A stretch of 64,000 nt of DNA. Source: Thermoplasmata archaeon (GTDB lineage Archaea; Thermoplasmatota; Thermoplasmata; Lutacidiplasmatales; UBA184). The position numbers were made by a program, and so were the translations under genes. The stretch lies in the NCBI GenBank assembly GCA_021844945.1, contig JAKBSJ010000001.1:124001-188000 (forward strand). Reading direction: 5' to 3'. Positions within the stretch are counted from its first letter, which is position 1. Every line of letters begins with the position of its first letter. Under the pieces are notes generated by a model. The model made no database searches. It was not told the origin of the DNA and worked only from the letters and a program-made list of their open reading frames with translations. Of the stretch, positions 61,078 to 62,254 are shown piece by piece.

Positions 61078-61138
61078 TGCGCTCAGCTCGCCCATCACTC
61101 ATCACCGATCAGCTGGTTCTTGTCTTCATCATCGCGCA
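61078..61138 (-). ncRNA. C/D box sRNA (2'-O-methylation guide)
   Basis: Read on the minus strand from 61138: terminal stem TGCGC, C box GATGATGA (61133-61126), 13-nt guide AGACAAGAACCAG, D' box CTGA (61112-61109), 3-nt spacer TCG, C' box GTGATGA (61105-61099), 12-nt guide GTGATGGGCGAG, D box CTGA (61086-61083), and closing stem GCGCA. All four boxes and a perfect 5-bp terminal stem are present with normal archaeal spacings. By the D-plus-5 rule the targets would contain CTGGTTCTTGTC and CTCGCCCATCAC; the target RNA was not identified. It lies 7 bp after the hisA-like stop and may be processed from that transcript. Confidence 0.85.
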
Positions 61139-61145
61139 ACGACCC

Positions 61146-61916
61146 TTAATGGGGAGACTCCTCGGCAGAAGCGACCTGATCCCACCGGAGAAGTTCGTCG
61201 CCCAGAGGATAGATGGCTCCGACCGCTCCGGCGGTCGCGGCTTCGGACGCATCTCGCGCGGTGACGTTCCCCGCGACCCAAGTCGGGCCGACGCTCGCTA
61301 CCGACCGAACCAGAGGCCAGGACGGCGGCGTGGTGCGGAACCCAAGGACGAGCGGGATCTCCGCCAGTTGGCGGACGTCGCGGGCAAGACCGGCAGGGTC
61401 CTTCGCGTGCCAGCCGGGGTCGATCCGGCTCATCGTGTAGTCCTCGATCTCGATCTCGAAGAGGAGATCGCTCGACAGCTCCCACGCGTGCGCCAGCTCG
61501 GTCGGGCCCTGAAGCCGTGCGCTCGAGAGCACGACCTTCTGGGCTCCGGCAACGAGAATGTCGATTGCGTGATCCGCCGACCGCGTTCCCGCATCAATCC
61601 AGAGCCCGACATCCCGTGAGATCTCCTGGATGTAGTCCAGCTGGGCCTGCCCCCCTTCGAGCGCGCTGAGGTCTATTAGGTACAACCGTGCGTGGTCTCG
61701 CGCGAGCCCGTCGATCACGTCGAAGAGTTCGACGGAACTGCCATCTTCGCGTCGGACGACCTCGGGGCCGCTCTCGCTAGCGCGGCAAACAACCCCGCCC
61801 CGGATCAAAAGGGACGGGATTGCGAGGAGTCCGTTCGGCCAGCGTTCGTCCGCCACCGGTGCCCCGAGCCACGCATTCTCAGGTCCATTTGCCTTTGCTT
61901 GGCGCGCCGCAACCAT
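61146..61916 (-). CDS. HisA/HisF-like TIM-barrel protein
   Basis: A 256-residue protein. VVCRASESGPEVVRREDGSS near the start, LYLIDLSALEGGQAQLDYIQ in the position of the HisA second Asp strand, DVGLWIDAGTRSADHAIDIL and GAQKVVLSSARLQGP follow the HisA/HisF barrel, and AGAVGAIYPLGDEL ends it. The phosphate-binding Gly motifs are weaker than in true HisA. Archaeal HisA-like paralogues of unknown or pterin/amine-related role exist. ATG 61916 is chosen because an upstream ATG would run through rnpB. The C/D sRNA follows. Confidence 0.72.
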   Translation of the reverse strand: MVAARQAKANGPENAWLGAPVADERWPNGLLAIPSLLIRGGVVCRASESGPEVVRREDGSSVELFDVIDGLARDHARLYLIDLSALEGGQAQLDYIQEISRDVGLWIDAGTRSADHAIDILVAGAQKVVLSSARLQGPTELAHAWELSSDLLFEIEIEDYTMSRIDPGWHAKDPAGLARDVRQLAEIPLVLGFRTTPPSWPLVRSVASVGPTWVAGNVTARDASEAATAGAVGAIYPLGDELLRWDQVASAEESPH

Positions 61917-61944
61917 GAAGGGCCCGCTCCGGAGTGCCGTCGTG

Positions 61945-62254
61945 CCAGGAGGTGGAGGGCAGCTGACGGTAGTCCGTGCCGGCAACGGCCGGCTGCTGAG
62001 GAAAGTCCCCTCTCCGGGAACCACGGGGCCGGATGGGAATCCGGCGGGCGAGAGCCTGAGCTCCGGAGCAGAAACGACACAGTCCGGTGGGACGGTGAGG
62101 ATGCGGCATCGGAGGCTCCACCGGAATTTGATGAAACGGCCGACTCCCCGGGAGCAAGCCCTAGAGGACGGCGTGAGGAGGTTCCCCGACCGTCGAGGAG
62201 AGCGCGCAGTCGAATGCTGCCGAGAACAGAAAGGGGCTTACTCCCACCACCTGG
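61945..62254 (+). ncRNA. rnpB: RNase P RNA, archaeal
   Basis: The RNA that matures tRNA 5' ends. Conserved region I appears as GAGGAAAGTCC (61998-62008), and region V as ACAGAAAGGGGCTTA (62226-62240); AGCAAGCCCTAGAGGA (about 62154-62169) resembles region IV. The ends pair as helix P1, CCAGGAGGTGG (61945-61955) with CCACCACCTGG (62244-62254), one mismatch. The length of about 310 nt is typical of archaeal type A RNA. No TATA box is obvious; the promoter must lie in the first codons of the hisA-like gene on the opposite strand. Confidence 0.9.

Follow-up and report, generated by a model that had tools for sequence, protein, structure and literature searches.

A widely distributed archaeal box C/D guide sRNA with C1402 of 16S rRNA as the most likely target of its D guide

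The minus-strand element described here, which follows a hisA-like gene in the 64,000-nucleotide stretch of archaeal DNA that was analyzed (the window), is very probably an archaeal box C/D guide sRNA that would originate from the 3′ end of the hisA-like mRNA, act within an L7Ae–Nop5–fibrillarin particle and direct its D guide to C1402 of 16S rRNA. The RNA is of a known kind, and its distribution is unusually wide. It represents a candidate guide for methylation of C1402, a decoding-site nucleotide, in an uncultured soil archaeal lineage. The parts of the sRNA and its neighbors are as follows.

61078–61138, minus strand: whole C/D box sRNA, 61 nt, from the four-box pattern and conservation
61134–61138, minus strand: terminal stem, 5′ strand UGCGC, from the covarying stem
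61126–61132, minus strand: box C, AUGAUGA, a perfect match to RUGAUGA
61113–61125, minus strand: D′ guide AGACAAGAACCAG, 13 nt; candidate targets in 23S rRNA are GCUGGUUC (helix-35 region) and the U2510 region
61109–61112, minus strand: box D′, CUGA, read from the sequence
61099–61105, minus strand: box C′, GUGAUGA, 3 nt after box D′, read from the sequence
61087–61098, minus strand: D guide GUGAUGGGCGAG, 12 nt; predicted to target 16S C1402 (E. coli numbering) or, alternatively, 23S C2558
61083–61086, minus strand: box D, CUGA, read from the sequence
61078–61082, minus strand: terminal stem, 3′ strand GCGCA, from the covarying stem
61146–61910, minus strand: hisA-like gene, upstream of the sRNA on the same strand; stop codon 61146–61148, start codon uncertain
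61947–62252, plus strand: archaeal RNase P RNA, a divergent neighbor beyond the hisA-like gene

Read along the minus strand from 61138 to 61078, the RNA has the order UGCGC-G-AUGAUGA-AGACAAGAACCAG-CUGA-UCG-GUGAUGA-GUGAUGGGCGAG-CUGA-GCGCA, in which all four boxes are perfect, the D′–C′ spacer is UCG (3 nt) and the terminal stem comprises 5 bp. The original prediction had listed four boxes, guides of 12–13 nt, a 3-nt spacer and a 5-bp stem, and every one of these elements is present in the sequence; it named no strand, and the target strings that it gave fit RNA of the minus strand. Its placement of the sRNA beside the hisA-like gene also holds, as the sRNA begins 7 nt past the hisA-like stop codon on the same strand. 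The strict pattern TGATGA-N8-16-CTGA-NNN-RTGATGA-N8-16-CTGA matches once in the window and in none of 100 shuffles, and the strict four-box pattern has a single match in the organism's own 1.26-Mb genome, with zero for the reversed control. Covariation of the terminal stem is 0.868 versus 0.208 in shuffles, with 92.5% of cells paired and each of the 5 pairs varying on both sides. The folding energy of the sRNA is unremarkable (z = −0.5), a measure that is uninformative for this class of RNA.

Archaeal box C/D sRNAs carry RUGAUGA and CUGA boxes, a k-turn stem, guides of ~10–12 nt and a short D′–C′ spacer (k-loop). The box order, terminal stem, guide lengths of 13 and 12 nt and 3-nt spacer of the window's RNA place it in this class, as does the complementarity of its D guide to a target, 16S C1402, opposite the fifth nucleotide before box D. 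The Rfam families snoPyro_CD (RF00095), sR1 and sR2 resemble it in their four boxes, guide lengths, stem and size, whereas their guide sequences differ from those seen here. The sRNA misses every Rfam gathering score (41.6 bits against a cut-off of 45 for snoPyro_CD, 38.5 against 42 for sR2 and 36.7 against 45 for sR1), and no existing Rfam family covers it.

The product of the hisA-like gene matches Pfam His_biosynth (E = 1.8e-9). The mechanical open reading frame of this gene, 61146–62024 on the minus strand, overlaps the divergent RNase P RNA, and the true start probably lies downstream of this overlap, near 61910. Overlap of a C/D sRNA with the 3′ end of a gene is an arrangement described for archaeal C/D sRNAs (PMC7994747), and the hisA-like transcript is the probable host of the sRNA. 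Could the sequence, instead of being a guide RNA, serve the hisA-like mRNA as a conserved 3′-end or regulatory element? In favor of such an element, the sequence adjoins the hisA-like gene within the genus, most genus loci checked retain the order RNase P RNA, hisA-like gene, sRNA, and in many genus genomes the hisA-like reading frame ends, with its stop codon, inside the sRNA. We nevertheless consider this explanation highly improbable, since outside the genus the sRNA is located elsewhere (no hisA-like tblastn match was found in the class-level loci examined) and yet retains the same boxes, the D guide, a covarying stem and covariation between D guide and 16S rRNA.

A BLAST search with a 91-nt query detected the sRNA in 51 of the genus's 61 genomes, where the hisA-like gene and the RNase P RNA are its usual neighbors, and matched 21 further genomes of the class. 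Genus genomes that gave no BLAST match are mostly incomplete, an exception being G026, which is 95% complete. Identity of the sRNA is 81–97% in nearly all genus matches, and that of the adjacent hisA-like protein is mostly 37–51%. Two broader surveys are biased toward RNAs that retain the D guide, since both the covariance model (built from 24 sequences) and the exact pattern contain it: the model matched 286 of 390 Thermoplasmatota genomes (179 of the 203 of good quality) and 125 of 155 genera, and when 84,980 prokaryote genomes were scanned for the exact pattern, the 80 loci listed were all archaeal, with Thermoplasmata, Methanobacteriales, Methanococcales, Altiarchaeota and DPANN lineages among them. 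The D guide is constant across the phylum Thermoplasmatota and recurs in other archaea, while its partner, the D′ guide, turns over. In a survey that covered seven archaea, no single methylation position was guided in all of them (PMC7994747), and a guide present almost throughout a phylum therefore sheds light on how the widely shared C1402 modification has evolved. The genus takes in soil genomes deposited as Thermoplasmata, and genomes AcS1-3 and SubAcS15-31 are Ca. Lutacidiplasmatales (PMC9287336); through its genus, the window's own genome would fall in this order as well.

Which nucleotide would the D guide select? A search of the organism's own assembly for rRNA recovered neither 16S nor 23S, and the rRNAs of relatives were therefore used, with the target taken as the rRNA base opposite the fifth nucleotide before box D or D′. 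In relatives' 16S rRNA the D guide pairs with the conserved sequence CCGCCCGUCA through 9 bp, 8 Watson–Crick and one G-U, and the target base is C1402 by E. coli numbering, which lies at about position 1341 of the relatives' own 16S rRNA. The changes seen in related genera support this assignment. In G234, G301 and G397 of one genus and in G205 of another family, 16S C1404 is replaced by U and guide position −7 is A rather than G. In the tally of all guides compared at this position, 4 of 4 A's face U, 27 of 29 G's face C, two form G/U and there is no A/C. Guide position −8 (U or C) is always opposite a 16S G, and A at −9 is always opposite a 16S U. The covariation gives a Fisher p = 4e-4, a value to which few lineages contribute and which overstates their independence. 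In the same four genomes the 23S H92 site around C2558 is unchanged; because the guide changes across the phylum fit 16S rRNA while the 23S site stays the same, 16S C1402 is preferred over 23S C2558. On this sequence evidence, C1402 is the best-supported target of the D guide, and the sRNA most likely directs methylation at the decoding site of the ribosome.

The usually conserved decoding-site C1404 is U in G234, G301, G397, G205 and G136 (loci L347, L336, L337, L342 and L340), and in G136, which belongs to the window's own family, G is kept at guide −7, uncompensated. A 2′-O-methyl group at the C1402 site occurs as Cm1402 in E. coli, Cm1369 in P. abyssi, Cm1639 in yeast and Cm1703 in human (PMC11542601), and the yeast modification is guided by snR70 (PMC5199042). 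The predicted target is thus the same as that of yeast snR70 and plant AtU43 (18S Cm1639 and Cm1645) and of P. abyssi Cm1369 (PMC11542601, PMC5199042); unlike snR70 and AtU43, the window's sRNA is an archaeal dual-guide RNA of 61 nt.

The original prediction had also proposed that both guides can be used to predict methylation targets, which is supported for the D guide by compensatory changes in other genera; for the D′ guide, the 23S candidates of 7–8 bp each are no better than those of shuffled guides. The exact target strings that it offered, CTGGTTCTTGTC and CTCGCCCATCAC, have no full match in relatives' rRNA. A scan for tRNA targets in 3-kb loci around 30 tRNA genes placed its best matches outside the tRNA stretch (about 1501–1600) and found no tRNA target.

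In the Lutacidiplasmatales-like genus of the window, the D guide's main or second target might instead be C2558 of 23S rRNA, which lies in the A-loop hairpin stem (UUCGCCCAUUA), either in place of or besides 16S C1402. C2558 is the best-scoring site for the D guides of the genus (mean −21.1 kcal/mol, n = 7 distinct guides), with a duplex of −22.1 kcal/mol versus −18.4 kcal/mol for 16S in a simple nearest-neighbor score and 11 contiguous positions paired, G-U included. Moreover, the A/G variation at −2 and the G/A variation at −10 seen in the genus both preserve pairing with U's of 23S, and A at −10, present in some genus members, breaks the pair with 16S C1407; helices 90–93 of 23S rRNA are also a known methylation hotspot (PMC7994747, PMC4644070). 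However, in many other Thermoplasmatota guide position −8 is C or position −7 is A, bases that fit 16S but mismatch at the 23S site, the D′ guide of Altiarchaeota-type relatives (GAACAACC) is complementary to overlapping A-loop sequence around U2552, and the rRNA-methylation literature cited here yielded no mention of Cm2558. We therefore regard a role for C2558 as possible but doubtful. A combined history, in which one D guide had 16S C1402 as its ancestral target and gained the 23S A-loop hairpin (C2558) as a second target in the window's lineage, appears unlikely; if true, a single RNA would modify the ribosome both at its decoding site and on its peptidyl-transferase side. Our first scan ranked 23S C2558 at the top and missed the 16S site because mismatches at guide positions −1 and −2 were penalized; relaxed scans and the class-wide guide changes moved 16S C1402 forward.

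Within the family, almost all D′ guides share the sequence AGAACC(A/G)G, a conservation that does not extend further. Different D′ guides occur in other lineages, for example AAACCCAGC against 23S GCUGGGUUU (about G2581), besides that of the Altiarchaeota-type relatives. For 26 distinct D′ guides of the genus, the top two sites in 23S rRNA are GCUGGUUC, with its U in the helix-35 region (about E. coli U810), and U2510 in domain V (GGUUCU, 2508–2513), with means of −16.0 and −14.7 kcal/mol, respectively. Helix 35 and domain V are known methylation hotspots (PMC7994747), and human Cm4456 corresponds approximately to E. coli 2510 when counted from Um4498 = Um2552 (PMC11542601). Against these sites, shuffled guides reach equal scores in 16% of cases, the helix-35 site is mismatched by the invariant A at −8 and the domain V site by A at −2, and U2510 also occurs where the D′ guide is unrelated (genomes G061, G101 and G120). 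Methylation of 23S rRNA at either U by the D′ guide is a tentative proposal, on balance not favored.

With 16S C1402 as the preferred target of the D guide, we infer the following course of expression, RNP assembly and methylation. The hisA-like mRNA would probably carry the sRNA at its 3′ end and, by analogy with known C/D biology, the sRNA would be trimmed to about 60 nt through protection in an L7Ae–Nop5–fibrillarin particle. Boxes C and D together with the terminal stem would fold into a k-turn, and boxes C′ and D′ into a k-loop. The D guide would then anneal to CCGCCCGUCA of 16S rRNA, and fibrillarin would 2′-O-methylate C1402, which faces the guide at the fifth position ahead of box D. 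The D′ guide may pair with 23S rRNA, more weakly than the D guide pairs with its target.

The organism's own genome encodes fibrillarin and Nop5, as expected of a genome with archaeal box C/D sRNAs, in two copies each.

C4:150485–151111, C3:121104–121718, C2:34563–34922 and C3:121865–122197 of the genome: two fibrillarin and two Nop5-domain genes

The fibrillarin paralogues are 39% identical over 195 aa, and the Nop5-domain proteins are 41% identical over 106 aa. One fibrillarin gene adjoins one Nop5 gene, and this C3 pair lies about 1.8 kb to the left of the window start. The duplicate fibrillarin and Nop5 genes would provide this archaeon with a second machinery for C/D-guided methylation.
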